Origin: Frankiales bacterium
GTDB lineage: Bacteria > Actinomycetota > Actinomycetes > Mycobacteriales > Jatrophihabitantaceae
Assembly: GCA_025963265.1 (NCBI GenBank)
Contig: JAOPUY010000503.1
Coordinates: 1-13,127 of the forward strand
DNA length: 13,127 bases
Reading direction: 5' to 3'
The notes beneath the pieces are model-generated. The model saw nothing but the letters and a program-made list of their open reading frames with translations, had not been told where the DNA came from and made no database searches. The position numbers and the translations under genes were made by a program. Numbering within the stretch: the stretch's first letter is position 1; every line of letters starts with the position of its first letter. Shown here piece by piece: positions 1 to 11,771 of the stretch.

Positions 1-851
1 CCCGTGCCGAGGTACTTCTTGTGGAACTTCCCCTGGTCGTAGGTGCGGCCGATCCGCTCGACGTAGTCGTGGGCCTTCGCCCAGGCCAGCTCGTCGGTCT
101 GGGCGACGATCGGACGGAAGGTCACCCAGATCTTGGGCAGCGTGCTGCGCCCGGCCGCCCGGGCGATGGCGTGCACCCGCTCGATCTCGCTGCGCAGGTC
201 CTCCAGCGGCTCGCCCCAGAAGGAGAAGATGTCGGCCTTGGCCCCGCCGACAGCGAAGGCCTCATCGGACTGGCCGCCGATCGAGATCGGGATGGGCGAC
301 TCGTACGGGGCGAAGCCCGGTCCGAAGTCGTCGAACTTGTAGAACTGGCCCTCGTGGCTGAACGGGGCGGGCTCGGTCCAGGACCGGCGCAGCACGTCGA
401 TGAACTCCGAGGTGCGGGCGTAACGCTGCTCCTTGGGCAGGTAGTCGCCCTGTCGGGCCTGCTCGGCGTCGCTGCCGCCGGAGATGAGGTGGACGACCGC
501 GCGGCCCTCGGTGAGCTGGTCCAGGGTGGCCAGTTTCTGCGCTCCGACGGTCGGGAACGTGGTGTTCGGGCGGAGCGCCACGATCGGCCGGAGGTGCTCG
601 GTCAGCTGACCGACCGCGCTGGCGACGACAAACGAGTCGGCGCTGTTGGAGCCGTAGGGCAGCAGGGTGTAGTCATAGCCGCCTTCTTCTAGCGAGCGGA
701 CGTATTTGCGGAAGTACTTCAGGTCGATCCCGCGGCTGGGAACCGGGTTCAGCTCGGTCGAGGCGTTCAGGTGCGAGAGGCTGATGAAGCCGACCTCGTC
801 CGATGCCGTGGCCGGCAGGCTCGAGTCAAAGTTCGGGTTGGGGTTGGTCAT
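1..851 (-). CDS. FMNH2-dependent LLM-class monooxygenase, SsuD-like (second copy, 3' end cut by window edge)
   Basis: The first 283 residues of a bacterial-luciferase-like (LLM) flavin-dependent oxidoreductase are visible; the C-terminal quarter lies beyond the left edge. Family members of the alkanesulfonate monooxygenase (SsuD) type use reduced FMN from a partner reductase and O2 to cleave a C-S bond, giving sulfite and an aldehyde. Seen here: ALRPN, DQLTEGRAVVHLISGGSDAE, QRYARTSEFID, IGGQSDEAF and FWGEPLEDLR, all matching the SsuD core. It is a close paralog of its upstream neighbour (31 of 40 residues identical across the GGSDAEQ region). Its ATG (851-849) overlaps the neighbour's TGA as ATGA, so the two are probably translationally coupled. 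A roughly 30-residue N-terminal extension precedes the first strand. By eye, the SsuD active-site Cys position is Ser here. The substrate could be a sulfonate, a sulfone or another compound; the LLM class is certain, the substrate is not. Confidence 0.88.
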   Translation of the reverse strand, partial: MTNPNPNFDSSLPATASDEVGFISLSHLNASTELNPVPSRGIDLKYFRKYVRSLEEGGYDYTLLPYGSNSADSFVVASAVGQLTEHLRPIVALRPNTTFPTVGAQKLATLDQLTEGRAVVHLISGGSDAEQARQGDYLPKEQRYARTSEFIDVLRRSWTEPAPFSHEGQFYKFDDFGPGFAPYESPIPISIGGQSDEAFAVGGAKADIFSFWGEPLEDLRSEIERVHAIARAAGRSTLPKIWVTFRPIVAQTDELAWAKAHDYVERIGRTYDQGKFHKKYLGT

Positions 852-2035
852 GCGAAGGTCCTCTCGGCCAGGTGCGGTTCGGTCTTGGCAGTGTTGGCAT
901 AGGCGCCGGGGTGGTCCTCCTGCAAGGTGCCGCGCTGGCCGGTGGCCTCGCGGTGGGCCAGTTCTTGCCGCACCAGCGGCACGACGTAGCGGCCGTAGTC
1001 GATGAGGTCGTTGAGGTTGTCATAGCCGCGGATGGAGATCAGCTCGGCGCCGAGGTCGACGTAGTCGAGGATGGCCGCGGCCACCGTCTCGGGCGTGCCG
1101 ACCAACGCGGTGGACGCGCCGGCGGCGCCGGTCGCCGACGCGGTCGGCGTCCAGAGCGCCCGGTCGTGGACGTCTTGGCGGGAGGCGATCTCCAATAGCC
1201 GTTGCGAGCCGACGTTCTGCGGCGCGCCCCCGCCGAGGATGTTGCGGGGCGAGGTCATGCCCGCCAGCCCGGACTGACCGTTGGACAGCACGCCCAATGT
1301 CCGGTGCGCTTTCTCCCAGGCCAGCTCCTCGGTGGCCGCGATGATCGGACGGAAGGTGACCCAGATCTGCGGCCGGTCGGTCCGTCCGGCCTTCTCGGCC
1401 TCGAGGTTCACCGCGTCGATTTGCTGCCGGGTGTCGGCCAGCGGCTCGCCCCAGAGGCCGAAGATGTCGGCCCGCGAGCCGCCGACCCGGTAGGCGTCGG
1501 CCGAGGATCCGCCCACCGAGACCGGGATGGTCCCGTTGGTCGGGCGCACCGTGCTCAGGAAACCGTCGAATTTGTAGAACTCGCCCTCGTGGTCGAACGG
1601 CTCGGTGCTGGTCCAGACCTGACGCACGATGTCGATGTACTCAGCCGTGCGGGCGTAGCGCTGCTCTTTAGTGAGGAAGTCGCCCTCGCGGGCCTGCTCG
1701 GCGTCGCTGCCCCCGGAGATGAAGTGGACGACCGCCCGACCGCCGCCGAACTGATCGAGGGTGGCCAGCGCCTTGGCCGCCACTGTGGGGTACATGATGT
1801 TCGGCCGCAACGCGATGATCGGCGCCACTCGCTCGCTGCGGGCCACGATCTGGTTGGCGATCGCGAACGGGTCCTGGAACACCGAGGCGTAGGCGCACAA
1901 GGTGTAGTCGAAGTCGGCGTCCTCGAGCGCGTTGACGTACCGCTTGAAGAACGGCAGGTCGATCTCGGCCCGTCCGAGTCGGTTGAGTTCGTTGCTGGGG
2001 TTGACGTTGACGGCGCTGATGAACTTGACGGCCAT
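848..2035 (-). CDS. FMNH2-dependent LLM-class monooxygenase, SsuD-like (first copy)
   Basis: A complete 395-aa LLM flavin monooxygenase, close to the usual 380 aa of alkanesulfonate monooxygenases. SsuD landmarks are ALRPN (75-79), GGRAVVHFISGGSDAEQ (98-114), QRYARTAEYID (125-135), GGSSADAY (175-182), LWGEP (194-198), STALVGTPETVAA (308-320) and RGYDNL (336-341). Against E. coli SsuD aligned by eye, Tyr331 is kept (Tyr338), but the residues at Cys54 (Phe53), Arg226 (Thr227), His228 (Arg229) and Arg297 (Gly/Ala in the TGAAGASTALVG loop) differ. This is therefore unlikely to be a plain SsuD and may act on another sulfonate or sulfone. It starts 36 bp after the sulfurtransferase fusion gene and overlaps the next paralog by ATGA, so it is the middle gene of a sulfur operon. 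A GGAGAG purine stretch lies upstream of the ATG. No FMN reductase is visible in the window. Confidence 0.9.
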   Translation of the reverse strand: MAVKFISAVNVNPSNELNRLGRAEIDLPFFKRYVNALEDADFDYTLCAYASVFQDPFAIANQIVARSERVAPIIALRPNIMYPTVAAKALATLDQFGGGRAVVHFISGGSDAEQAREGDFLTKEQRYARTAEYIDIVRQVWTSTEPFDHEGEFYKFDGFLSTVRPTNGTIPVSVGGSSADAYRVGGSRADIFGLWGEPLADTRQQIDAVNLEAEKAGRTDRPQIWVTFRPIIAATEELAWEKAHRTLGVLSNGQSGLAGMTSPRNILGGGAPQNVGSQRLLEIASRQDVHDRALWTPTASATGAAGASTALVGTPETVAAAILDYVDLGAELISIRGYDNLNDLIDYGRYVVPLVRQELAHREATGQRGTLQEDHPGAYANTAKTEPHLAERTFA

Positions 2036-2071
2036 GGGGTTTCGCTCTCTCCGGTGTGGGTCTGATCGACT

Positions 2072-3922
2072 TCAGGACGGCTGGGATCCAGCTTCGGGGC
2101 CGGTCGCGATGGGACGGCTCGGATCGGCCGACCAGGCCGACCAGGATCCGGGGTAGAGCGCCGCGTCCACGCCCGCGACCTGCAACGCCGCGATCTCGTG
2201 GGCCGCCGTGACCCCGGAGCCGCAGTACACGCCGACGTCCGATGCCCCGACTCCGGCCGCCGCGAAGCGCTCGCGCAGCTCGGCTCCCGAGCGGAATCGG
2301 CCGTCAGCGTCGAGGTTTCCGGCGGTGGGCACGCTGATCGCGCCCGGCACGTGGCCCGCGCGGGAGTCGACCGGTTCCACCTCGCCGCGGTAGCGCTCCC
2401 CGGCTCGGGCGTCCAGGAGCACTCCGTGCGCAGGCAGCGCCGCGGTCGCCTCGATGTCCAGCACGGGGAGGTGCCCCGCGCTCAGCGAGACGTCCCCGGC
2501 GTCGGGCCGGGTCGCATCGGTGGCGACCGGCCCGCCGCCGGCCAGCCACGACCGCAGCCCCCCGTTAAGGATGCGGACGTGGCTGACGCCGGCCCAGCGC
2601 AGCAGCCACCACGCGCGGGCCGCGCTCTGTCCACCGTTGTCGTCGTAGACGACGACGGACTGTCCCTGCCGCAGACCCCAGGTCCGCGCCGCCGCCTGCA
2701 GTTCACTCAGCTCCGGCAAGGGGTGGCGGCCCTGCTCGGCGGTGGCCGGCGCGGCGAGCTCGGTCTCGAGGTCGACGAAGACGGCGCCCGGAACGTGGCC
2801 GTCCAGGAAGTGCTTCTCGCCGTCCGGGTCGCCCAGCGCCCAGCGCACGTCGAGCAACGCCGGTGGGTTCCCGCCCGCCAGTTCGGCCCGCAGCGTCGCC
2901 GGCTCGACCAGCACGCTCGCCCCGGCGAGGACGTCGGCCAAGTCGGCCAGCGGCAGCGACCCCGGTTGGGTTCCCTCCTGCACCGCCTGGTGGACCCGGC
3001 TCAGCAGCGCCTCGTTGATCGGGGCCCGCCGGCGCAGCTGACGCGCCAGCAGCGCGATCTCGCCGTTCAGATAGTCGGTCTCCACGCCGCGCCCGCGGGC
3101 CAGGCTCTGGAAGGTCGAGCTCCCGGGCCGTTCGTGGCCCGCGATCGGGGCGTGGCCGAAGCGGTCGAGCTGGACGGTGCTCTCGGTCGCGGTGTCGGCT
3201 GGGTCAAAGCCGGCCGCGGTGAGAATCTCGCGGGCCTCGGCCTGGACCAGGCGGGCGGCCCGGTCCCGCTCCGGACCCGCCGGGTAGAGGGCGTCCAGGA
3301 CGAAGGTGGCGCTGCCCAGCAGCTTGCCGGCCTTCCAGCGCGAGAGGTCCTCGACCACCTGCACCTCGAAATCAGCGGCGACCAGGTCCGCGGCGATGAT
3401 CTGGGTCGCGGCCGAAGCCGGCTGACCCACCGAATCGGGATAGCCGCCGAGCCAGAACACCCCGGCCGCGGGCGTGGACGGCGTGGCGACCACGCCGTCG
3501 CTGACGTAGGTCGAGGGCACCCACACCACCGAGCCGATGACCGTCGCGAACCGGCGCAACGCGCTGCGTTCGGCGTCCAGTCCGTTCTGCATGGTGAAGA
3601 CCGGTAGCACCTCGCCGGCCCGGGCTCGGCCGCCGTCGACTGGTTGGCCGGCCCACTGTCCGAGCACGGCGTCGGCGTCCTGGGTCTTGGTGGCCAGCAC
3701 CAACACGTCCGCGCTGGTCAGGCTGAGCTCGTCCGGGCCTGCGGCGATGGGCACGTCGACCGTCCACGCCGCGTCCGGCCGGAGGTAGCGCACGCCGCCC
3801 GTCCGCAGCAGTTCCAGCTGACGGCCGCGGCCGACGAGGACGACCTCACGGCCGCCGCGCTGTAGCTCCGCGGCCAGCGTCACCCCGACCGCGCCGGCGC
3901 CGATGATCACGTACCTGGTCAT
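2072..3922 (-). CDS. Fusion: ketopantoate-reductase-like (ApbA/PanE) domain plus tandem-rhodanese 3-mercaptopyruvate-type sulfurtransferase
   Basis: One uninterrupted 616-aa frame joins two proteins usually encoded separately. Residues 1 to about 320 form an ApbA/PanE-like NAD(P)-dependent 2-oxoacid reductase: Rossmann GAGAVG (8-13), FTMQNG (109-114), WKAGK with Lys200 at the catalytic-Lys position, and ETDYLNG (281-287) in the C-terminal domain. The two Asn that normally follow that Lys are Ser and Val by eye, so true ketopantoate reduction is doubtful. Residues about 337-465 are an inactive rhodanese domain (DDNGGQSAARAWWLLRW, Asp427 at the Cys position). Residues about 486-605 are the catalytic rhodanese with YCGSGVTA (Cys567). 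CGSGVT is the 3-mercaptopyruvate sulfurtransferase signature, as opposed to CRKGVT of thiosulfate sulfurtransferases. It is the first large gene behind the Cys-Cys leader peptide. No good Shine-Dalgarno precedes the ATG; the start is fixed by the Rossmann strand. The product is probably cytosolic. Confidence 0.9.
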   Translation of the reverse strand: MTRYVIIGAGAVGVTLAAELQRGGREVVLVGRGRQLELLRTGGVRYLRPDAAWTVDVPIAAGPDELSLTSADVLVLATKTQDADAVLGQWAGQPVDGGRARAGEVLPVFTMQNGLDAERSALRRFATVIGSVVWVPSTYVSDGVVATPSTPAAGVFWLGGYPDSVGQPASAATQIIAADLVAADFEVQVVEDLSRWKAGKLLGSATFVLDALYPAGPERDRAARLVQAEAREILTAAGFDPADTATESTVQLDRFGHAPIAGHERPGSSTFQSLARGRGVETDYLNGEIALLARQLRRRAPINEALLSRVHQAVQEGTQPGSLPLADLADVLAGASVLVEPATLRAELAGGNPPALLDVRWALGDPDGEKHFLDGHVPGAVFVDLETELAAPATAEQGRHPLPELSELQAAARTWGLRQGQSVVVYDDNGGQSAARAWWLLRWAGVSHVRILNGGLRSWLAGGGPVATDATRPDAGDVSLSAGHLPVLDIEATAALPAHGVLLDARAGERYRGEVEPVDSRAGHVPGAISVPTAGNLDADGRFRSGAELRERFAAAGVGASDVGVYCGSGVTAAHEIAALQVAGVDAALYPGSWSAWSADPSRPIATGPEAGSQPS

Positions 3923-4130
3923 GCGCGCTCATTCGGGATCGCGGTGCAGACGGTGTCAGAGCGGGTGAGAGTCATCAAGCACTTTCCCTGTGGGCGGCGG
4001 ACCACGCGGCGTCACTAGCTCGCGCGGCGGTTGGGCGCAATCGAAGGGGCTGGCGCGTTGGCGAAACATCACGACACGCGGATTGCGCGGTGAGGCTAAG
4101 CGCACGATCCAGCCAGTTGAGGTTCTAGCG
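3923..4130 (-). promoter_or_regulatory. Structured leader between leader peptide and sulfur operon (candidate attenuator)
   Basis: About 208 nt without a gene separate the leader-peptide stop from the fusion gene. Read on the minus strand it can form an 8-bp perfect stem GCGCAATC/GATTGCGC (4081-4088 with 4035-4042). Within its loop is a further perfect 5-bp stem, 4076-4080 with 4054-4058. A second 7-bp hairpin with one G-U pair follows (4021-4027 with 4002-4008, 12-nt loop). Also, GGCTGG after the stop can pair with CCAGCC lying inside the first loop, which would compete with that stem. No U-tract is present, so if this is an attenuator it is Rho-dependent or acts on translation. The mechanism is inference. 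Confidence 0.45.
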
Positions 4131-4274
4131 TCAACAGCAGCTGGTGCCGCGCCGCTGTAGATCGATCACTCGACGCTGGGTCAGGTGCTGCGAGACCAAC
4201 GTCTGGACCGGCCGGACGAGCCGAGCGTGGGCCGAACGCGACGCCAGGCCGCACCCGCACTCCACCTCTATCAT
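4131..4274 (-). CDS. Cysteine-rich leader peptide of the sulfur operon (47 aa, ends Cys-Cys-stop)
   Basis: A short frame begins at ATG 4274 and encodes 47 residues ending LTQRRVIDLQRRGTSCC then TGA. The C-terminal pattern LTxRRxxDLxR followed by terminal Cys codons matches the short peptides annotated as putative leader peptides upstream of sulfur and sulfonate genes in actinomycetes. Tandem UGC-UGU directly before the stop suits ribosome stalling when Cys-tRNA is scarce, as described for polycysteine upstream ORFs in mycobacteria. Two more Cys codons (residues 6 and 8) sit near the start. The frame is probably leaderless: a TAGATT -10 box ends exactly 7 nt before the ATG, so transcription should begin at or next to the A. 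Shorter starts (GTG at residue 4, TTG at residue 26) are possible but do not fit the promoter spacing. The peptide itself is probably only regulatory. Confidence 0.75.
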   Translation of the reverse strand: MIEVECGCGLASRSAHARLVRPVQTLVSQHLTQRRVIDLQRRGTSCC

Positions 4275-4281
4275 GTCTAGG

Positions 4282-4311
4282 AATCTAGTGGACATTGCAA
4301 TCGGTGTCCAA
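4282..4311 (-). promoter_or_regulatory. Promoter of the sulfur operon with overlapping inverted repeat
   Basis: Minus-strand -35 TTGGAC (4306-4311), 18-nt spacer, -10 TAGATT (4282-4287), then 7 nt to the leader-peptide ATG. TANNNT is the actinobacterial sigma-A type -10. A perfect 6-bp inverted repeat TGGACA-N10-TGTCCA (4289-4294 and 4305-4310) lies over the -35 and spacer and contains a central TTGCAA. A dyad in this place is operator-like, so the operon may be under both repressor and leader-peptide control. The regulator is not identifiable from the window. Confidence 0.6.
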
Positions 4312-4326
4312 CGCAGGCGTGGTCGC

Positions 4327-4354
4327 CGCGCCGCTCCAGCTGTCCCGCGGCGCG
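4327..4354 (-). terminator. GC-rich hairpin after the acyl-CoA/SDR operon
   Basis: A perfect 8-bp inverted repeat CGCGCCGC/GCGGCGCG with a 12-nt loop begins 2 nt after the SDR stop codon and lies before the leader-peptide promoter. It has no T-tract, as is usual for actinobacterial terminator-like hairpins. It probably separates the two minus-strand operons. Confidence 0.5.
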
Positions 4355-4356
4355 CC

Positions 4357-5136
4357 CTACGTGACGGGACTGAGCCCGCCGTCGAAGTTGATTCCCACGC
4401 CGGTGATGAAGGCGCTGCGCTCGGAGAGCAGGAACAGGGCCAGATCGGCGAATTCCGACGGCAGGCCGACTCGGCCGACCGGGATATTGGCCGTCACGCC
4501 GATCTTGTCGTAGTACTCCTCGACCGTGACGCCCTGGGCGGCGGCGCCGCGTTGCCCTTGCCCGCTGCGGACTATTCCGATCAAGACGGCGTTGACCCGG
4601 ATCTGATCCGGTCCAAACTCGCGCGAGAGCGCCTTGGTGAGCGCCAATCCGGCGGCTCGGCTGACCGAAGTCGGGGTCGACCCCGCCCCGGGCGCCTTGC
4701 CCGAGATGGCCAGGACGTTGACAATGCTGCCGGCGCCCGCGGTTCGCAGGTGCGGCAGCGTCAGGCGAATCAAGCGAATGGCCGCCCGCAGCTTGAGGTC
4801 TAGGTCCTCATCCCACAGGGACTCGGTCTGGGCGTCAAAGGGCACGGCCGAGCTCGCGCCGGCGTTGTTGACCAGCCCGTCGATGCGTCCCCAGCGGTCG
4901 AGCGCCGCGGCCACGAAACGCTCGAGATCGGCCTCCTGGCGCACATCGGCTCGCACGCCGATCACGTCGCCGCCGGCGGCGACCAGCTCGCCGGCTAAGG
5001 CCTGAACCCGATCTTCGCTGCGCGCGCAGAACGCGACCTTGGCCCGCTCCTGGGACAGCGCGCGAACCAGCGCGGCGCCGAGGCCATCCGATCCACCGGT
5101 GACGAGGACGACCTTGCCGGCCAGCCCGAGCTCCAT
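4357..5136 (-). CDS. SDR-family protein lacking the usual Tyr-Lys catalytic pair
   Basis: 259 aa, the normal length for a classical short-chain dehydrogenase/reductase. Seen: TGGSDGLG cofactor loop (13-20), ADV (63-65), NNAG (90-93), SIVNVLAISG (137-146) with the conserved Ser145, and a C-terminal ITGVGINFDGG (244-254). The YxxxK box is replaced: the aligned stretch reads TPTSVSRAAGLALTK (154-168), with Thr156 at Tyr and Arg160 at Lys. The codons are clean, so this is not a sequencing slip. A subfamily of SDRs with the same TPTSVSRAA segment exists, so the loss is probably inherited. It may work with other catalytic residues or bind acyl-CoA or cofactor without classical chemistry. It is the last gene of the TetR-dehydrogenase cluster, 95 bp after the acyl-CoA dehydrogenase. 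A GAGG site precedes the ATG. Confidence 0.88.
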   Translation of the reverse strand: MELGLAGKVVLVTGGSDGLGAALVRALSQERAKVAFCARSEDRVQALAGELVAAGGDVIGVRADVRQEADLERFVAAALDRWGRIDGLVNNAGASSAVPFDAQTESLWDEDLDLKLRAAIRLIRLTLPHLRTAGAGSIVNVLAISGKAPGAGSTPTSVSRAAGLALTKALSREFGPDQIRVNAVLIGIVRSGQGQRGAAAQGVTVEEYYDKIGVTANIPVGRVGLPSEFADLALFLLSERSAFITGVGINFDGGLSPVT

Positions 5137-5231
5137 GACAACCGCCTCACTGTCGCTGAGTTTCGCAGCGCTAGCGTAGTTCCTCGGCCAACGCGGCTGT
5201 CCCGGCGGTCAGGCCGGCGGCACCGAGCCCG

Positions 5232-6512
5232 CTAGCTGTCGCCGGCCCAGTTCTGCCCGGCGTCCTGAACCTGCCGGAAGGTCTTTCCCCGGTCGAAGCT
5301 GGGCTCCCTAGGCAAGCCGAGCACCCGTTCGCCCAACGCGTTGCGCTGGATCTCATTCGTGCCGCCGGCAATGGCCGTGACCCGGGAGTTCAGGTACCCG
5401 AGGGAGAAGGTGAGCGCGTCACGGTCACCGGGCTCCCAAGCGAGCGCGGCCGCACCGCCCACGTGCATGGCCTTTTTCGCGCGCTCGGGCTCCATCAGCC
5501 CGACCGCGAGCTTGGAGTAAGAGATGATGGCGGGCCCGGCGGGGTGCCCGGCGAGCATGAGCCGGGCCAGCCGCGCGCCGAGCGCGCGCACGGCGAAGTC
5601 GCCGGTGTGCGAGGTCGCGATCAGTTGGCGGGTGTGCGGGTCGCCGGTGCGCCCGGTGCGACGGGCCATCTCGACCAGATCTGGGGCGAGCGGACCGGGG
5701 CCGGTCAGGGTGAGCACGGAGGTGAGACCGCCTGAGCTTGCCTCTCGTTCGTACTGCAACACGCTTTGCGCGACGGCCCACCCCTCGCCCACGCCGCCGA
5801 TGCGCTCGCTGTCGGCGATGACGACGTCGTGGAACTCCTCGCGGCAGAACTCGGCGTCACCGGTGATCTCAGTCAGCGGTTCCACCGTCACGCCGGGCAA
5901 CGCGGTGCCGACCGCGAACCAGGTCAGCCCTTTGTGCTTGGGGACGTCCCAATCGGTGCGGGCCAGGCAGAGTCCGAAATCGGCGTAGTAGGCGCCGCTG
6001 CTCCAGACCTTCGACCCATTCAGCACCCAGTGATCGCCCTCGCGGACCGCGGTGGTGGTGACGCCGGCTAAGTCCGAACCGGCACTGGGGTCCGACAGGA
6101 ACTCGGCCCATAACTCCTCCCCGGCCAAGATCGGGCCGAGATGGCGTTGCTTGAAGTCCTCGCTGGCGTGCCGCAGCGCGGTCTGCGCGATCACCGCGAG
6201 GGTCACGACGCCGGCGATTCCCAGATCGGGCGTGATGAAGTCCTTGGCCTCGTCGAGATAGGCGAGTTCATGGGCTCGGGTCAGGCCGCGACCGCCGTAC
6301 TCGACCGGCCAGGTGATGCCGGCGTAGCCGCCGCGATGGACCAGGGCCTGCAGCGCGCGCTGCTCGGCGATATCCTCGACGGTGCGGTGGACCAGCCCGC
6401 GCGTTCTCTTGAGCGCGTCGGTGCGCCGCTCCAGATTGGCCTCCAGCCAGGCCCGGGCCTGCGCGCGGAATTGTTCGACTGAGATGGACGCGGGGGCTGC
6501 GGTTTCGGTCAT
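5232..6512 (-). CDS. Acyl-CoA dehydrogenase family protein (long subunit)
   Basis: 426 aa, FAD-dependent alpha,beta-desaturation of an acyl-CoA. Family features: helical N-domain, GITWPVEYGGRGL (65-77), the beta-domain FAD/substrate segment FLSDPSAGSDLAG (138-150), WVLNGSKVWSSGA (162-174), and the C-terminal AGGTNEIQRNALGERVLGLPREP (382-404). At the site where medium-chain enzymes carry the catalytic Glu (YEGT) this protein reads AGGT. Glu255 in LQYERE may serve instead, as in isovaleryl-type enzymes. Its ATG overlaps the stop of the upstream dehydrogenase as ATGA. Adjacent unequal pairs like this form heterotetramers in actinobacterial steroid side-chain degradation (FadE/ChsE type), so a two-gene enzyme is likely. 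The substrate is not deducible; a bulky acyl-CoA (steroid, terpenoid or aromatic side chain) is a guess from family habit. Confidence 0.92.
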   Translation of the reverse strand: MTETAAPASISVEQFRAQARAWLEANLERRTDALKRTRGLVHRTVEDIAEQRALQALVHRGGYAGITWPVEYGGRGLTRAHELAYLDEAKDFITPDLGIAGVVTLAVIAQTALRHASEDFKQRHLGPILAGEELWAEFLSDPSAGSDLAGVTTTAVREGDHWVLNGSKVWSSGAYYADFGLCLARTDWDVPKHKGLTWFAVGTALPGVTVEPLTEITGDAEFCREEFHDVVIADSERIGGVGEGWAVAQSVLQYEREASSGGLTSVLTLTGPGPLAPDLVEMARRTGRTGDPHTRQLIATSHTGDFAVRALGARLARLMLAGHPAGPAIISYSKLAVGLMEPERAKKAMHVGGAAALAWEPGDRDALTFSLGYLNSRVTAIAGGTNEIQRNALGERVLGLPREPSFDRGKTFRQVQDAGQNWAGDS

Positions 6513-7660
6513 GACTGCTCACCCGTCGGTTGGGCCGCGAGCGAATGCAGCTCGCAGATGCGTTCGTTATGCCATTGCGCAGTGCCGAACAGCGCGGCGT
6601 CGGTGGTGATCCGGCGCAGGAACAGGTGAAAGTCGTTCTCCCACATGTAGGAGATGCCCCCCAGCGATTGCCAGACCGCGTGCGCGACGTCCACGCCCGC
6701 GTCGGCGACGTAGGCCTTGGCCATGCTGACGATCTCATCGGCGTCGGGCGTTTCCTCGTCAACTGCCTGGGCCGCCGCGTCGCACATGGCTCGGCTCGTC
6801 TCGAGCTTCAGGCTCGCGTCCACCAACAGATGCTTGATGGCCTGGAAGGACCCGATCGGCCGGCCGAACGCGGTGCGGTCCTTGGCGTATTGCAATGCGA
6901 CGTCGAAGATGTGGCCCATGGAGCCGGTGGTCATGGCCGTTGCCAGGACCAGGGCCGTGCGCACCTGGCGCGCGACGCCGTCCGTGCCCACGGCCCGGGC
7001 GCCGACCAGCGAGGTCACGGGCACCTCGACGTTGGTCAGCGTGACGGTGTAGAAGGCCCGGGTGATGTCGAGGCTGTCCAGTCGGTCGAGCCGCAGGCCC
7101 GGTTGCCCGGTCGGGATCAGGAATTGGCTGACCCCGGCACCGTCCCGGGCCGACATCAGGATCCAATCCACCGCCCCGGCGTCGAGCACCATCGGCAGGC
7201 TTCCGTTGAGCACGAAGCCAGCCGGCGATGACTCGGCCTGGACGTCTGACCCGCTTCCCCAGTAACCCGGGATGCTGCTCGCGGCCCAGGTCGCGAGTTG
7301 GCGCCCAGCCACGATGTCCGGGCCGACCTTCGTGCGGTGAGACTCAGAGCCGAGCTGCGACAGGGCCAATTGGACGACGACGGACTCCACGAACGGACCC
7401 TGCCCGAGGGCCCGTCCAAACTCCTCGGCCACGACGGCCGAGCGGGCCAGCGACTGCTCGCCGCCGGCCGGCAGGAAGTGCCCGCTCGCGCCGAGTTCGC
7501 TCCAGCGCGGCCGGTCCAGCACCGCCCCGGCTTCGGCGAGGGCCCGCACCTCGGTGAGCGACCAGCCGCTCTCGTCGAAAAAGCCGAGCACCGGATCAGT
7601 GATCGGGCGCCGGTCTGGCTCGATCCATCGTCCGGCCGCGCGCGAAGCATCGTCTGCCAT
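6509..7660 (-). CDS. Acyl-CoA dehydrogenase family protein (short partner subunit)
   Basis: 383 aa from the ATG at 7660, which has a GAGG ribosome site 6 nt upstream. The frame stays open for another 155 codons, but that extension reads antisense-like Arg/Ser/Pro-rich sequence inside the TetR gene and is not homologous to the family. C-terminal FAD-contact motif RTAFGRPIGSFQAIKH (262-277) is intact, and GGISYMWENDFHLFLRRI (334-351) takes the place of the usual G-x-G-T-x-E region. The N-terminal and middle domains are poor matches to the canonical WxxTEP/GSD segment, as in the non-canonical subunit of heteromeric FadE pairs. It is the first gene of a three-gene unit (this gene, the longer dehydrogenase, the SDR), 79 bp downstream of the TetR stop. 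A 25-nt imperfect palindrome lies just before it. Confidence 0.9.
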   Translation of the reverse strand: MADDASRAAGRWIEPDRRPITDPVLGFFDESGWSLTEVRALAEAGAVLDRPRWSELGASGHFLPAGGEQSLARSAVVAEEFGRALGQGPFVESVVVQLALSQLGSESHRTKVGPDIVAGRQLATWAASSIPGYWGSGSDVQAESSPAGFVLNGSLPMVLDAGAVDWILMSARDGAGVSQFLIPTGQPGLRLDRLDSLDITRAFYTVTLTNVEVPVTSLVGARAVGTDGVARQVRTALVLATAMTTGSMGHIFDVALQYAKDRTAFGRPIGSFQAIKHLLVDASLKLETSRAMCDAAAQAVDEETPDADEIVSMAKAYVADAGVDVAHAVWQSLGGISYMWENDFHLFLRRITTDAALFGTAQWHNERICELHSLAAQPTGEQS

Positions 7661-7688
7661 TCTCGACCTCGCCGTCCACAGCGGTTCG

Positions 7689-7713
7689 CTACCGATCCGA
7701 TCGGGACCGGTAG
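7689..7713. promoter_or_regulatory. Imperfect palindrome before the acyl-CoA dehydrogenase pair (candidate TetR operator)
   Basis: CTACCG-N13-CGGTAG is a perfect 6-bp dyad; with the inner bases, 18 of 25 positions are symmetric. It ends 29 bp before the ATG of the first dehydrogenase gene and lies in the 79-bp gap after the TetR gene. Size and place suit a TetR-family operator, but no binding evidence exists. Confidence 0.4.
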
Positions 7714-7739
7714 AAGTGTGGGCCAAGGCTACCGCCTGG

Positions 7740-8384
7740 CTAGCGCCGCGCCCGCTTGACGACGAGGCCGCCGAGTAGCCGATCGACGGTGAGGACCGAT
7801 TCGTCGCGGGCGGCGATGGGGTCCTCGGCGTTGGCGATGTACAGCGCGGCCTCGTCGATCGCGGCGAGCAGCACGTGGGCCAAAACGCTGGTCGGCTGCG
7901 GGCTGAGGGTCTTCTCGGCGACGGCCAAGTCGAGCAGGCCCTGGATGCTGCCGAGGCCGTATTGCTCCTCCAACTCACGCCACTCCTGCCAGCCGAGCAC
8001 GGCGGGGCCGTCGATGAGCAGGATCCGCTGGACCTCGGGGGTGAGCGAGGCGTCGAGGAAACCCAGCAGCCCTTCGCGCAACCGTCCGTAGGCGTCCTTC
8101 GGCGCCGGGGTGGCGCGAGCGGCATCGGGCGTGGCGGTGGTGACCAGATCGGTCTCGACGCGTTCGAAGACGGCGCGAAAGAGCGCCCGCTTGTCGGCGA
8201 AGTGGTGGTACAGCGCGCCCCGGGTGCCGACCCCGGCGGCGGCCACGATCTCCTCGGTGCCCGTCTCGAAGTAGCCCTTCTCCACGAACAGCCGCCGCGC
8301 CGCGACGATGATCGCCTCTCGCGTCGCCTCGGCCTTCTCCGCGCGCGCGTAGAGCGCTGACGGGCCGGGCTTCGGGCTGCTCAC
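7740..8384 (-). CDS. TetR-family transcriptional regulator
   Basis: 214 aa from GTG 8384, a typical TetR length. The N-terminal helix-turn-helix is clear: ATREAIIVAARRLFVEKGY (20-38), then TEEIVAAAGVGTRGALYHHF (43-62) and ADKRALFRAVFE (63-74). The rest is helical and would bind a ligand, perhaps an acyl-CoA given the downstream genes. The frame is open up to 8549, but those 55 upstream codons have no family similarity. The GTG is chosen because about 20 residues before the first helix is usual; it lacks a strong Shine-Dalgarno. It heads the run of minus-strand genes with the dehydrogenases and SDR and is divergent from the dienelactone-hydrolase gene, so control of either or both is likely. 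Confidence 0.9.
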   Translation of the reverse strand: MSSPKPGPSALYARAEKAEATREAIIVAARRLFVEKGYFETGTEEIVAAAGVGTRGALYHHFADKRALFRAVFERVETDLVTTATPDAARATPAPKDAYGRLREGLLGFLDASLTPEVQRILLIDGPAVLGWQEWRELEEQYGLGSIQGLLDLAVAEKTLSPQPTSVLAHVLLAAIDEAALYIANAEDPIAARDESVLTVDRLLGGLVVKRARR

Positions 8385-8442
8385 TCGCTCAGTCTGACAG
8401 GTCCGAGCGCATTCCTCAGACGGCCCTTTCGGCCCTCGCCCG

Positions 8443-8520
8443 ACTCTAGCGAGATCAGGTCTCGATGCGTTAGCGTCACCGAGACGGCGGCTCAGCCCAG
8501 GTGAGGTGCGGTGGTCTCGG
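8443..8520. promoter_or_regulatory. Promoter/operator cluster upstream of TetR gene
   Basis: Minus-strand TAGAGT (8443-8448) fits a TANNNT -10 for the TetR gene. Directly upstream is CGAGA-N5-TCTCG (8450-8464), a small dyad lying in the promoter spacer. The same half-site recurs as CCGAGAC-N28-GTCTCGG (8479-8485 and 8514-8520). Four RTCTCG half-sites therefore fall within about 70 bp, which suggests an autoregulatory operator. No -35 is convincing. Confidence 0.35.
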
Positions 8521-8602
8521 CCGTCTGACCTCGCTCGTCCTACCGTCATGGAGAGGGAACTGAGTTGAGAGCTGGCCTGGCGAGTTCACTCGACTCGTTC
8601 GC

Positions 8603-8646
8603 CGTCCAGGACGCTGCTCAACCCGACCACGTGGCCGTCCGGACGG
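8603..8646. promoter_or_regulatory. Two related palindromes upstream of the dienelactone-hydrolase gene
   Basis: CGTCC-A-GGACG (8603-8613) and the perfect 12-mer CCGTCC-GGACGG (8635-8646) share the GTCC/GGAC core. Their centres are about 32 bp apart, near three helical turns. They lie 60-100 bp before the gene start in the divergent 321-bp gap (8385-8705), which holds no gene I can support. Confidence 0.35.
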
Positions 8647-8705
8647 TCATCATTGCCTGATTTTCACACCCTCGCGCACCGCGACTTCCCCGAAGGATGA
8701 GGCCC

Positions 8706-9482
8706 ATGACCGTCGAATTGCCCACGACCGACAAGTACACCGACGTGCAGGAATCCGCGGTGGAACTCACCTCGCGCTACGCCGGGACGGTGCCGGCCCT
8801 GGTGTTTCGGCCGACGGGGGACGGTCCGTACCCAGCTGTGGTGATCGGCGTGGAAGCCTATGGGATTAACGACTTTGGGCGACGGGTGGCGGCCAGTTTG
8901 GCCCACCGCGGATACGTCGTCGTCGTGCCGGACTACTACCGCGGCCACGGTCTGAAAGACCCGGAGAACTACCTCGACTTCACCGAGGTCATGGGGGCGA
9001 TCGACGGCCTGGATTTCACCGCTGGCGCGCACGATCAGCTCGCGGCCATCGACTACGCGGCTGGACTCGACTATGTGGATGCCGACCGCATCGCCGTCTG
9101 GGGCTACTGCACCGGCGGCACGTTGTCGCTGCTGGCCGCGGAGCTGTCCGATCGCATCGCCGCCGCCGTCCTGTTCTTTCCCAGCCAGCCGACCTTCCCA
9201 GAGCTCAACCGGTCGCGTCCGGTGAACGCGATTGATCTGCTCTGGGCTATCCGTTGTCCGGTGTTGGTCATCTACGGCGACCAAGACGACATCATGCCGG
9301 CCGCTGGCATCGCCGACCTCCGCGAGCGTTTCACCCGCTGGGGTGTCGATCACGAGATTAGGGTTTACGCCGGCGCCGGCCACGCGTTCTCGGCTCCGGT
9401 GGCGCCGCTTCGCAACGACGCCGCCGATCGGCTTGCGTGGCCCGACGCGGTGGGCTTCCTCGACTCGCACCTCGCGCGGTAA
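8706..9482 (+). CDS. Dienelactone hydrolase family protein
   Basis: 258-aa alpha/beta hydrolase. The nucleophile elbow is GYCTGG with Cys135, the acid is in YGDQDDIMP (Asp194 most likely) and the His is in GAGHAF (His226), the Cys-Asp-His triad of dienelactone hydrolases. Glu50 in GVEAYG matches the Glu that holds the Cys in the resting enzyme. Known members hydrolyse dienelactone to maleylacetate in chlorocatechol routes, but many paralogs act on other esters or lactones. The ATG at 8706 is preferred to the in-frame ATG at 8697 because GAAGGA sits 8 nt upstream of it and would be too close to the earlier one. It ends with a double stop, TAATAG. It is divergent from the TetR gene and no ring-cleavage genes are visible, so the pathway is unknown. 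Confidence 0.9.
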   Translation: MTVELPTTDKYTDVQESAVELTSRYAGTVPALVFRPTGDGPYPAVVIGVEAYGINDFGRRVAASLAHRGYVVVVPDYYRGHGLKDPENYLDFTEVMGAIDGLDFTAGAHDQLAAIDYAAGLDYVDADRIAVWGYCTGGTLSLLAAELSDRIAAAVLFFPSQPTFPELNRSRPVNAIDLLWAIRCPVLVIYGDQDDIMPAAGIADLRERFTRWGVDHEIRVYAGAGHAFSAPVAPLRNDAADRLAWPDAVGFLDSHLAR

Positions 9483-9488
9483 TAGCTC

Positions 9489-9581
9489 ATGACAGTGCTC
9501 GTAACGGCGGATCTACCGGTGGACGGGCCCCCACCGCCGTTCACGGTCACCGAGGCGTTCGACCTCATTCGCGGGCGGTAG
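9489..9581 (+). CDS. Possible 30-aa peptide or gene remnant
   Basis: An ATG 6 nt after the hydrolase stop opens a 30-codon frame ending in TAG. The product is Pro-rich in the middle (GPPPPF) and then reads TVTEAFDLIRGR. It has no Shine-Dalgarno of its own and could be read by reinitiation. I do not recognise it; it may be the stump of a lost gene or chance. Confidence 0.2.
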   Translation: MTVLVTADLPVDGPPPPFTVTEAFDLIRGR

Positions 9582-9632
9582 CAGCGACCTCCGCCACCAG
9601 CGAGGTGTGGGCCGCGGCGGCAGCCGAGCAGT

Positions 9633-9638
9633 TAACGT
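9633..9638 (+). promoter_or_regulatory. -10 box placed for a leaderless transcript
   Basis: TAACGT fits TANNNT and ends 7 nt before the GTG at 9646, the spacing at which transcription would begin at the start codon. No ribosome site precedes that GTG. No -35 is evident. Confidence 0.45.
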
Positions 9639-9645
9639 CGTTGGG

Positions 9646-9882
9646 GTGAGCACACCGCAGGAAGAACGGGACGCCGCCTTGGTCGCGTACCGGAGCGCCT
9701 GTGCCGAGTTCGAACAAGCCCAAGAGCACTGGGATTCGTTCTTGGCCCGGCCCGAGCTGACCGAGACCGAATCGGTGGCTGCCGACGCTGCCTTCGACCG
9801 GCTCAAGCAAGCGAACCAGGCGCGGCAGGACGCGCTGGACTGGCTATGGGTGGCCTGGCGTAACCGTCCGGAGTTGGCTTAG
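9646..9882 (+). CDS. Small helical protein of unknown function (78 aa)
   Basis: From GTG 9646 the frame encodes 78 residues beginning STPQEERDAALVAYRSACAE. It is rich in Ala, Glu, Gln and Arg with Trp near the end (DWLWVAWRNRPELA). The heptad-like spacing suggests one long or two short helices with no membrane segment or signal peptide. The frame is open 13 codons further upstream, but the TAACGT box 7 nt before the GTG makes a leaderless start there more likely. Codon third positions are strongly GC, as in true genes here. It converges on cbtA with 37 bp between the stops. I do not recognise a family. Confidence 0.6.
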   Translation: MSTPQEERDAALVAYRSACAEFEQAQEHWDSFLARPELTETESVAADAAFDRLKQANQARQDALDWLWVAWRNRPELA

Positions 9883-9919
9883 GCGCGCAAGCACGAGGGC
9901 GCGGGGTGGGCCCGGAGCG

Positions 9920-10789
9920 TTAGGGGTTCACCGTCTGGCGGGGGACGCGGTCCGGGTTCGGCGCCGTTCCGACGACCCGCTCGAGGAGGTTGGAGAAGAT
10001 CAGCCCGATGACCGACCAGATGATCAGTTGGTTGATGATCGAGTAGAACCGGAACTTCCACAGCACGTCGGCGTCAAAGCCGGGGTACACCAACTGCCCA
10101 GCCGGATTGGTGATCGGCTGCGGGGTCTCGGTCGCGGCCCGCGCGTAGCCGGTCGCGCTGGACTGGACCACGTTGGCGTGCAGGTTGCCCAGGCTGGGCA
10201 GCACCGCCATCAGCGCGCAGAACAGCACGAGCAGGGCGCCGGCCGACAGCAACGTCGCGTGGAAAACCCCGAAGCGCCGCGTCAGCCGGCGGCCGAGCAC
10301 GACTGAGAGTCCGAGCAAGATCAGGCTCCCTGCGACCATCGTCAAGTAGAGATGCCCCCGAGTGGCGATGGTGAAAGTGTGCCCGATGGCCGGCGGGTTG
10401 GCCGGGTACTTGACGAAGGGCAACAGGTAGACGCCGAGGAAGCCGAAGCCCGCGATCAACAGGCCGAGGGTGCGAGGCCGCACGCCGAACCGGCCGTGCA
10501 ACACCAGGTAGGTCACGGCGACGAGCGCGCCCATCGCGGTCGAGAAGGCGATGATGCCGGTCGCCATGCCCACCGTCGACTGGATGCTCCGGCTGAAGAT
10601 CTCCGGCCCGTCAAGGCTGACCGCCACGCCCTGGGCCTTGTCGATCGCCGTGATCGCGGCGTCGCGGCCGGACTCGTAGTCGATCGCTTTGTCGATATAG
10701 GGCTCGGCAAAGATTCGGGCGAAGACGAAGCCGAGGATGCCGGCGATGAAGCCAGCTAGGGCGCCGCGCAGGATTACACGAATTTCCAT
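9920..10789 (-). CDS. cbtA: CbtA, membrane subunit of a cobalt transporter
   Basis: 289 aa with five to six hydrophobic segments (about 8-27, 72-97, 107-127, 144-165, 178-200 and 250-272). The family mark FVKYPANPPAIG follows the third segment. CbtA proteins are proposed cobalt importers that work with the small CbtB and supply cobalt for vitamin B12. Gene order here is cbtB then cbtA with 34 bp between them, and the pair sits behind a cobalamin riboswitch, which supports the role. AGGA lies about 9 nt before the ATG. The C-terminus is a short polar tail. The transport role is from family knowledge; the mechanism of the family is not well established. Confidence 0.92.
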   Translation of the reverse strand: MEIRVILRGALAGFIAGILGFVFARIFAEPYIDKAIDYESGRDAAITAIDKAQGVAVSLDGPEIFSRSIQSTVGMATGIIAFSTAMGALVAVTYLVLHGRFGVRPRTLGLLIAGFGFLGVYLLPFVKYPANPPAIGHTFTIATRGHLYLTMVAGSLILLGLSVVLGRRLTRRFGVFHATLLSAGALLVLFCALMAVLPSLGNLHANVVQSSATGYARAATETPQPITNPAGQLVYPGFDADVLWKFRFYSIINQLIIWSVIGLIFSNLLERVVGTAPNPDRVPRQTVNP

Positions 10790-10800
10790 CGGACTTAGTC

Positions 10801-10820
10801 CTGTCTAGGTAGGTAGACAG
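10801..10820. repeat. Hairpin between cbtB and cbtA
   Basis: Perfect 7-bp inverted repeat CTGTCTA-N6-TAGACAG fills most of the 34-bp gap between the two cobalt genes. It is AT-richer than its surroundings and has no T-tract. It could stabilise the cbtB part of the mRNA or lower read-through into cbtA; its function is not known. Confidence 0.6.
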
Positions 10821-10823
10821 CGA

Positions 10824-11045
10824 CTAATGGCAGGGGAAGCCGAGGAAGTGGCGCGCGTCGTGGACCCACTCATGGACGACCAACGTCTTGCCGAAGACCG
10901 AGCTCATACCCTCGTCAATGCCGACGAAGTAATAGGCGAGCAGCGCCAGCAGCACCGTGAAACCGAGGATCATCGCGACTCGAGTGGCCGGCAAAACCGC
11001 CGGAATGGTCACGGTCTGAGTGGGGTTCTGAACGGCAGAGGTCAT
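10824..11045 (-). CDS. cbtB: CbtB, small His-rich partner of the cobalt transporter
   Basis: 73 aa with one membrane segment (about 23-42) and a C-terminal metal-binding tail, HEWVHDARHFLGFPCH, with His58, His62, His66, Cys72 and His73. The tail and length are typical of CbtB, which is thought to bind Co2+ and hand it to CbtA. AAGGAG (11052-11057) lies 6 nt before the ATG, a strong ribosome site. It is the first gene after the cobalamin riboswitch and is followed by cbtA in the same direction. Confidence 0.92.
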   Translation of the reverse strand: MTSAVQNPTQTVTIPAVLPATRVAMILGFTVLLALLAYYFVGIDEGMSSVFGKTLVVHEWVHDARHFLGFPCH

Positions 11046-11079
11046 GTCAGTCTCCTTCGGGATGGATGCGTCCCGCTAG

Positions 11080-11212
11080 ATCGGATGTGCGCTCCGAGGA
11101 GGTCTGGCTCCTGGCGACGATGCCAGTCACAGTGGCGCGACCGTGTCGGATTCTCACCGACTTCTCCTCGGGGTGCGGCTCAACTTCAAGCCGTGCCCGC
11201 GTATGCGGATAC
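11080..11212 (-). promoter_or_regulatory. Cobalamin riboswitch upstream of cbtBA
   Basis: Read on the minus strand: closing helix CCGAGGAG/CTCCTCGG (11164-11171 with 11094-11101), hairpin GTCGG-N7-CCGAC (11157-11161 with 11145-11149), helix CGGTC/GACTG (11139-11143 with 11124-11128) whose loop carries the conserved GCCACTG (11130-11136), and a B12-box-like GCCAGGAGCCAGACC (11101-11115). These are hallmark elements of the adenosylcobalamin/cobalamin riboswitch. The outer ends are uncertain. When bound it should lower cobalt uptake. The CTCCT of the closing helix could also pair with the AGGAG ribosome site of cbtB, but which fold hides that site cannot be told by eye. Confidence 0.88.
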
Positions 11213-11219
11213 GGGGTAC

Positions 11220-11248
11220 AACCTACCGCGAACCGACAGCGGAGTAAA
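11220..11248 (-). promoter_or_regulatory. Promoter of cbtBA
   Basis: Minus-strand TTTACT (11243-11248), 17-nt spacer, TAGGTT (11220-11225). Transcription would start near 11213, just upstream of the riboswitch, leaving a 5' leader of about 170 nt. Confidence 0.45.
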
Positions 11249-11438
11249 TCGCCGCAGCAAGCTCGTGCCTCACGCTCCGGCGGCACGGTGCCTGACGGTG
11301 TGTCGCGGGCCCGCGCGTGCTCATGCGACGCGGGTGACGCGGCTGCACTTGAGGGCTACTAAACCAACTAACAACGCCGGGTAGCCATTCGGCTCTCGTC
11401 GGAAATTGGGTCTGAGATCGATTCGGAGCGGGGTCACC
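11249..11438. other. Non-coding stretch between cbtBA promoter and the 70-aa gene
   Basis: No gene, RNA or clear promoter is visible. Together with the riboswitch and promoter it forms a 393-bp gap between divergent genes. A GGAG lies about 10 nt before the ATG at 11439; no TANNNT box is convincingly placed for that gene. Confidence 0.4.
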
Positions 11439-11651
11439 ATGACATTGCTGAGGTTCATAGGCGGTCCGTGGCACGGGACCGAGCGCGAGATGCGGCCGGT
11501 GGAGACCGGCTCGGCGACTGAAGAGGCGTTCTACACCGATGACCCCGGCGCCGGGTTTTATCGAGCCGACCCGGCGCCGGGCCGCGCCGAGGACCACGCC
11601 GCGCAGACCGTCCCGCTCGCGGTCCGCTGGCACCCGTCCGCGCTGCGCTGA
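11439..11651 (+). CDS. Small protein of unknown function with GGPWHG motif (70 aa)
   Basis: 70 aa from ATG 11439, starting TLLRFIGGPWHGTEREMRP, then an acidic middle (TDDPGAGFYRADPAPGR) and a basic end (VRWHPSALR). Small actinobacterial proteins that open with a GGPxDG- or GGPWHG-like turn are common, but I know of no assigned function. Codon third positions are GC-rich, and a GGAG lies upstream of the start, which supports this strand over the opposite open frame. No membrane segment or signal peptide is visible. It converges on the arylsulfatase gene with a long inverted repeat between them. Confidence 0.55.
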   Translation: MTLLRFIGGPWHGTEREMRPVETGSATEEAFYTDDPGAGFYRADPAPGRAEDHAAQTVPLAVRWHPSALR

Positions 11652-11681
11652 AATGCGGGCCGCCGTGAACGCTGCCGTGAA

Positions 11682-11757
11682 GCCCCGAGTTACGCCCTAG
11701 TCGATGGTGTTCCGGCCGGCCGGCCTTAGGACCACGGAGTTGGGCGTAACTCGGGGC
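11682..11757. repeat. Long-armed inverted repeat between convergent genes
   Basis: A perfect 16-bp inverted repeat GCCCCGAGTTACGCCC / GGGCGTAACTCGGGGC (11682-11697 and 11742-11757) flanks 44 nt. Inside are a further near-complementary pair (about 11707-11713 and 11729-11735, one mismatch) and a central CCGGCCGGCCGG palindrome. The whole can fold as one imperfect 76-nt hairpin. It fills the 120-bp gap between two converging genes. It could be a bidirectional terminator or a dispersed REP/MITE-like element. Confidence 0.7.
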
Positions 11758-11771
11758 ATCCCCCCGACCCG

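Follow-up and report, generated by a model that had tools for sequence, protein, structure and literature searches.

Why should a reductase and a sulfurtransferase be encoded as one chain? The question is raised by a gene in a 13,127-nucleotide stretch of a Frankiales bacterium (assembly GCA_025963265.1, contig JAOPUY010000503.1, positions 1 to 13,127), referred to here as the window. The gene occupies 2072–3922 on the minus strand, with its ATG start at 3922 and its stop codon ending at 2072, and forms one uninterrupted frame of 616 amino acids that joins a reductase of the ketopantoate reductase (KPR) fold to a tandem rhodanese resembling 3-mercaptopyruvate sulfurtransferase (MST). The KPR-fold and rhodanese families are already known, and their conserved fusion is uncharacterised. 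The fusion, which soil bacteria such as Frankia also carry, probably belongs to an uncharacterised organosulfur gene set of actinobacteria, and its gene context is more telling on function than its domains.

The fusion, its conservation and its split forms

The architecture of the fusion protein is drawn from Pfam, its homologues and an AlphaFold2 model. The reductase half (residues ~1–316, 2975–3922, minus strand) consists of ApbA at residues 5–145 (64.6 bits, cut-off 22.2) and ApbA_C at residues 217–312 (39.8 bits, cut-off 22.7), and the Rhodanese family matches the remainder in two stretches (94.1 bits, cut-off 22.2). The first rhodanese domain, which is without the catalytic Cys, comprises residues ~337–470 (2513–2914), and the second, catalytic domain comprises residues ~484–608 (2099–2473), both on the minus strand and both with approximate borders taken from Pfam and AlphaFold2. 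The sequence of the second domain contains the CGSGVT active loop at residues 567–572 (2207–2224, minus strand), in which the codon of Cys567 occupies 2222–2224. The best NCBIfam matches are 3-mercaptopyruvate sulfurtransferase and 2-dehydropantoate 2-reductase, each below its curated cut-off. The AlphaFold2 model has a predicted template-modelling score (pTM) of 0.89 and a mean predicted local distance difference test score (pLDDT) of 90.6. A preliminary description of this DNA had reported a single 616-residue frame joining a reductase to a tandem rhodanese with CGSGVT, without giving the strand, and Pfam, the sequence and the homologues all bear it out. A single sigma-70-like promoter match is present upstream of the gene at 4282–4310 (minus strand; shuffled sequences give a mean of 0.0 with a standard deviation of 0.2).

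A protein search across 5.8 billion sequences finds 784 relatives at E <= 1e-3, of which the best 120, query included, were listed. These 120 have 86–100% of the query covered and, besides the query, 57–81% identity. Rhodanese plus at least one ApbA domain is listed for all of them, and profiles of each half, made from those same 120 sequences, match 120/120. The preliminary description had proposed a search for this domain architecture, and had regarded homologues that are consistently two genes as evidence for a local joining. The PanE-like and rhodanese parts stand in one protein across the best 120 of 784 homologues, and two-gene forms, adjacent or in one operon, are confined to some relatives. 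Judged from these homologues, the joining of the KPR-fold and MST-like halves is real and conserved. In the literature searched, no description of a PanE-like/rhodanese fusion was recognised.

The organisms named among the best 120 of 784 matches are actinobacteria, namely Frankia, Pseudofrankia, Jatrophihabitans, Pseudonocardia, and a Pseudonocardiales bin. The best 80 rows of a genome-contig scan contain 13 fused loci and add Actinocorallia, Amycolatopsis, Actinoplanes, and Paractinoplanes. Full-length matches occur in 1/24 genomes of the window's family, which is its own genome (E <= 1e-30), and in 9/397 sampled genomes of its order, its own included (E <= 1e-80). In its class, 16/394 sampled genomes match, its own included (E <= 1e-115); one of them (G709) is matched over residues 1–513 only, in one piece, and the remaining 15 hosts belong to a single family (f32). 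In its phylum, only its own among 296 sampled genomes matches, at a cut-off (E <= 1e-115) that distant fusions would escape. A plasmid search matches 14 records, none with a single region that covers 80% of the query. The fusion gene is broken in three records from a metagenome bin and draft genomes (L025, L010, L164), by possible sequencing error or decay.

The window's own genome (G000) is a bin, 63% complete and in 632 contigs. Among the best 120 of 784 matches, the closest named relative of its fusion is from Pseudofrankia, and no fusion is found in the 23 other genomes of the family; horizontal transfer, or a mis-binned contig, is possible. The G+C content of the window contig is 68.6% and that of three other contigs of the bin 69.4–70.1%, with no clear separation. 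The bin also has a stand-alone rhodanese (C57) that is 62% identical to the C-terminal half of the fusion. Another of its contigs (L158; C357, 1–3686) has a PanE-like gene flanked by a Dpp-type ATPase and another LLM-family monooxygenase gene, and this PanE groups with the operon-type unfused PanE clade.

Four fetched loci encode both halves as separate genes at short distance. Three of them (L155, L203, L206) keep the order of the fusion, with the rhodanese gene next after PanE; a candidate start codon for the rhodanese, Met in the first two loci and a different start codon in L206, creates a 4-bp overlap at the PanE stop. In the fourth (L156), a GlcD gene and a hydrolase gene lie between PanE and rhodanese, all within one stretch. 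The two genes are far apart in genome G034. In a reductase tree (FastTree, 58 sequences, midpoint-rooted), in which several inner supports are low (0.28–0.72), the smallest clade that unites the 33 fused sequences takes in the 4 split ones, L204 (from G034), and L207 as well. Because split reductases sit inside the smallest clade of fused ones, the tree suggests that the split forms arose by fission following fusion. Two broken genes are left out of one tree each, L010 for its short reductase piece and L164 for its short rhodanese piece, and L167, which shares a contig with L008, is excluded from all counts and trees.

Catalytic residues and candidate substrates

The core catalytic residues, as placed by alignment, are kept in both halves. 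In the sulfurtransferase half, C567, G568, S569, and G570 of the CGSGV loop are present in 119/120 fused proteins, the remaining one having a gap, and R510, the first substrate Arg, is present in 120/120. A CG[S/G]GVT loop is the motif of MST, and a CRKGVT-type loop that of thiosulfate sulfurtransferases. A thiosulfate sulfurtransferase is rejected by the loop, which reads CGSGVT instead. In human MPST, according to an excerpt of PMC12926118, two Arg residues (188 and 197) hold 3-mercaptopyruvate. The position of the second is V518 here, with V in 92, I in 27, and A in 1 of 120 fused proteins, and the MST model NF008557 gives 131.9 bits, below its curated cut-off of 250. The half is predicted to be MST-like, and with the MST-type loop and the first substrate Arg in place but not the second, 3-mercaptopyruvate is a plausible donor. 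Of the 3-mercaptopyruvate type assigned in the preliminary description, the MST-like tandem rhodanese with its CGSGVT loop thus stands, and the second substrate Arg is replaced.

In the reductase half, N113, K200, S269, and E281 are invariant in 127/127 listed fused proteins, and the GxGxxG glycines are kept in 123–124/127, the remainder being gaps. R32 aligns with Arg31 of E. coli PanE. In ketopantoate reductase, Glu256 is presumably catalytic and Arg31 NADP-binding; E281 corresponds to Glu256 and N113 to the catalytic Asn98. K200 is assigned as the catalytic Lys from the WKWAK spacing of T. kodakarensis; a MAFFT alignment with E. coli puts W196 opposite Lys176, and the alignment around the Lys could shift by as many as three residues.

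When E. coli PanE is modelled with a 4-hydroxy-2-oxo acid, as given in an excerpt of PMC10127515, Asn98 and Lys176 contact the 2-oxo group, Asn184 the carboxylate, and Asn194 and Asn241 the 4-hydroxyl. The window protein has F207, A215, and P266 at the positions of Asn184, Asn194, and Asn241, and because of these replacements ketopantoate is an unlikely substrate of the predicted enzyme. Reductase chemistry looks intact, the ketopantoate pocket lost. The preliminary description had seen an Asn pair changed after the reductase Lys and had held the change against ketopantoate reduction; the alignment confirms the Asn change, with Phe207 at the position of Asn184. Of the 127 listed fused proteins, 106 have F at position 207 and 19 have N; of 107 unfused relatives, 52 have N there and 51 have F, so the change at the Asn184 position is not particular to the fusion.

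Gene context and proposed function

The fusion gene is followed 36 bp downstream, on the same strand, by an SsuD-like (LLM) flavin monooxygenase gene (848–2035, minus strand), and this gene overlaps by 4 bp with a second SsuD-like (LLM) monooxygenase gene (3–851, minus strand) that is truncated by the contig end. The nearest solved relatives of the first are alkanesulfonate monooxygenases, then methanesulfonate sulfonatase and dimethylsulfone monooxygenase. The two neighbours score 157.9 and 149.7 bits at best against SsuD curated cut-offs of 510 and 518.2, the second gene being incomplete.

The context is compared between 34 fused loci (the window, 13 from the best 80 rows of the genome-contig scan, and 20 from the sampled order and class genomes) and 69 rhodanese-only control loci (67 from the same 80 rows, plus L157 and L205). 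The three broken fusion genes are counted as fused and searched as pieces, and two fused genomes with the fusion at a contig end (G563, G625) are outside the context counts. Flanks within 9 kb are scored with profiles of recurring gene clusters, and neighbours are named by Pfam and NCBIfam. Five core families are considered: an SsuD-like LLM flavin monooxygenase, an acyl-CoA-dehydrogenase-fold flavoenzyme, a GlcD-like 2-hydroxyacid dehydrogenase, an alpha/beta hydrolase, and a Dpp-type (family-5) binding protein.

At least one core family is present in 25/34 fused loci and 10/69 controls (Fisher p 5e-9, a value that overstates the difference, as related genomes are counted singly, the profiles come mostly from fused loci, the thresholds were set post hoc, and some contigs are short). 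The GlcD-like gene is found in 18/34 fused loci versus 9/69 controls, the acyl-CoA-dehydrogenase-fold gene in 16/34 versus 8/69, the LLM gene in 14/34 versus 9/69, the hydrolase in 15/34 versus 8/69, and the family-5 binding protein in 14/34 versus 4/69. An LLM or acyl-CoA-dehydrogenase-fold gene is present in 19/34 versus 9/69, and at least three core families in 18/34 versus 8/69. The acyl-CoA-dehydrogenase-fold neighbour has weak kinship with SfnB (87.8 bits, cut-off 430.9). An SsuC-type permease occurs in 3/34 fused loci, and the importer is more often Dpp-type.

Nine fused loci are without core families (L007, L012, L046, L149–L154). A BisC/DMSO-reductase-family S/N-oxide reductase is near six of these (L007, L149–L153), although L149–L153 are hardly five independent cases because their gene order is largely common. 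Two further fused loci (L006, L148) also have this reductase, as do the contig of the split locus L156 and 1/69 controls (L068). A core family or S/N-oxide reductase neighbour is present in 31/34 fused loci, and an LLM, acyl-CoA-dehydrogenase-fold or S/N-oxide reductase neighbour in 26/34.

The ten controls with core genes are six Streptomyces loci (L044, L045, L047, L053, L064, L077), R. jostii L061, Nocardioides L068, Rathayibacter L073, and Cellulomonas L076; by their gene content, these are like gene sets with an unfused rhodanese. An unfused PanE is present in the fetched stretch of four of them (L061, L068, L073, L077) and in none of the other six. Five of the Streptomyces loci (L044, L045, L047, L053, L064) contain LysR, hydrolase, rhodanese, SsuC-type permease, LLM, acyl-CoA-dehydrogenase-fold, and GlcD-like genes. 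Core genes are found in 2/17 PanE-only loci (L207, L209) and in only one of the four split loci (L156).

An organosulfur-scavenging role is the most likely one because core families recur near the fusion and two SsuD-like genes follow it in the window. The preliminary description was right on the conserved fusion of KPR-fold and MST-like parts and on ketopantoate as an unlikely substrate; its suggestion that the reductase acts on the substrate or product of the sulfur transfer stays a possibility. The neighbouring organosulfur-type genes, the best functional clue, are unmentioned in it. In Rhodococcus IGTS8, Table 1 of PMC8557817 lists a protein annotated as ketopantoate reductase PanG, known by that annotation only, as up more than four-fold on dibenzothiophene versus inorganic sulfate, and two proteins annotated as rhodaneses decrease in that table.

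Tentatively, with the balance of judgement close to even, the fusion may be a bifunctional enzyme whose halves both serve one small 2-oxo acid in organosulfur scavenging. The flavoenzymes would oxidise an imported organosulfur compound, which would become a small sulfur-bearing 2-oxo acid, either 3-mercaptopyruvate or a closely similar compound. R510 and S569 of the C-terminal half would hold this donor, and Cys567 would accept its sulfur as a persulfide and hand it on to an acceptor, a thiol or sulfite. The N-terminal half would use NADPH to reduce a 2-oxo acid from the same pathway to an R-2-hydroxy acid, with N113 and K200 holding the carbonyl; this substrate would be either excess donor or what remains after desulfuration, such as pyruvate. 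The GlcD-like enzyme would act on the same hydroxy/oxo couple, and the fusion would keep both activities together and co-regulated.

Several observations weigh against this proposal. On the protein itself, the second substrate Arg is replaced throughout, and the donor loop at residues 509–511 has a pLDDT below 50 in the AlphaFold2 model. On the context, 15/34 fused loci have no LLM or acyl-CoA-dehydrogenase-fold gene within 9 kb, the GlcD-like gene is the only core neighbour in L005, L010, and L014, and L012, L046, and L154 have neither a core family nor the S/N-oxide reductase nearby. The five Streptomyces controls and Cellulomonas L076 combine a rhodanese and a GlcD-like gene with no PanE in reach. 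No core gene is in reach of the three split pairs that are adjacent (L155, L203, L206), although the contigs of L155 and L203 end just past the rhodanese. In the rhodanese tree the fused halves are not monophyletic, and their smallest clade adds 54 unlinked, 9 operon-type, and 3 split sequences. Moreover, co-occurrence of genes is no proof of a common metabolite, and a reductase and a dehydrogenase on one hydroxy/oxo couple look futile unless they act at different steps.

A further reading, less likely than not, is an undescribed actinobacterial route for degrading a three-carbon acid whose sulfur is substituted or oxidised, such as mercaptolactate, sulfolactate, or one of their thioethers. 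The sulfur would leave as enzyme-bound sulfane sulfur and the enzyme's own reductase half would remove the 2-oxo acid at once, so that a single chain would couple desulfuration to carbonyl reduction.

The same gene set may instead use the two halves without a metabolic link, the reductase taking the carbon fragment released by the monooxygenases and the rhodanese taking sulfane sulfur from elsewhere, so that the fusion serves only co-expression and stoichiometry. Separate PanE and rhodanese genes in L061, L068, L073, L077, and L209 agree with such an arrangement, as do the PanE-less Streptomyces and L076 loci, but the end-to-end fusion is conserved and the same-order adjacency recurs in three loci, and the idea is somewhat unlikely.

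Sulfite handling is an unlikely role, in which the persulfidated rhodanese half would convert monooxygenase-released sulfite to thiosulfate and the reductase half would clear the resulting 2-oxo acid. SsuD-like enzymes do adjoin the fusion, and rhodaneses take sulfite as a thiophilic acceptor, as stated in an excerpt of PMC10962793. However, L149–L153 have the S/N-oxide reductase and no LLM gene in the ~8 kb of fetched flanks, and no sulfite would arise there by that route.

It is quite improbable that the cell relies on the reductase half as its ketopantoate reductase in making coenzyme A and that the fusion to a sulfurtransferase is an accident. The KPR fold and core residues are retained, but the ketopantoate reductase model TIGR00745 gives the window protein 106.8 bits, below the curated cut-off of 141.35. 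A TIGR00745 search of nine fusion-bearing genomes has a mixed outcome. The fusion is the top match in four (G258 148.9, G159 139.6, G609 96.9, and G432 94.1 bits); that of G258 is the sole fused protein of the nine genomes above the cut-off, and another G258 gene also passes (146.6). In the other five, another gene outscores the fusion: G490 (194.1 vs 114.1), G519 (189.5 vs 107.3), and G144 (168.7 vs 138.9), where the outscoring genes are all above the cut-off, then narrowly G333 (139.8 vs 139.3), and the window's own genome (121.4 vs 108.8). The neighbours also fit sulfur metabolism better, and a plain ketopantoate reductase is rejected on the TIGR00745 score and on the F, A, and P at the three Asn positions. 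Finally, two-gene forms in some relatives might recall an assembly or sequencing artefact joining two genes, a virtually nil prospect that is ruled out by fused copies in homologues and in many independent genomes of the sampled order and class, some of them of one contig.

Other genes of the window and known systems

Upstream of the fusion on the same strand, 4357–8549 (minus strand) contains an SDR gene, two acyl-CoA dehydrogenase genes, and a TetR_C_41 regulator. This group is probably a cluster separate from the fusion, because other fused loci showed only SDR matches of 30–32%. A CbtA-like putative cobalt transporter (PF09490) lies at 9920–10789 (minus strand). At 11772–13079 (minus strand) is the C-terminal part of an arylsulfatase-like protein (SGSH_C and the end of Sulfatase), apparently cut by the contig end, a further possible sulfur-scavenging gene ~8 kb away from the fusion.

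The analysis links an MST-like family, and a KPR-like family whose usual name is 2-dehydropantoate 2-reductase, to a single candidate gene set for organosulfur compounds in actinobacteria, Frankia included. If this is true, the database names 2-dehydropantoate 2-reductase and thiosulfate/3-mercaptopyruvate sulfurtransferase are wrong for such genes.

When compared to ketopantoate reductase (E. coli PanE; T. kodakarensis 5ayv/5hws), the window protein differs at the three Asn positions, falls below the TIGR00745 cut-off, and carries a C-terminal sulfurtransferase. It shares 18% identity with the KPR-fold D-mandelate (D-2-hydroxyacid) dehydrogenase (5x20, 8wl1), which is not known to be fused. 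Like 3-mercaptopyruvate sulfurtransferase (E. coli SseA 1urh, human MPST 4jgt), it has a tandem rhodanese, CGSGVT, R510, Ser569, and His376; in contrast, it has V, I, or A at the human R197 position in 120/120 fused proteins and scores 131.9 bits against 250. The gene sets resemble SsuD/SfnG-type organosulfur operons in their LLM monooxygenases, the acyl-CoA-dehydrogenase-fold flavoenzyme, and, in 3/34 loci, an SsuC-type permease. Unlike those operons, they add a GlcD-like dehydrogenase, an alpha/beta hydrolase, and MST-like and PanE-like parts, their importer is more often Dpp-type, and the LLM protein of the window is far under the SsuD and SfnG cut-offs.
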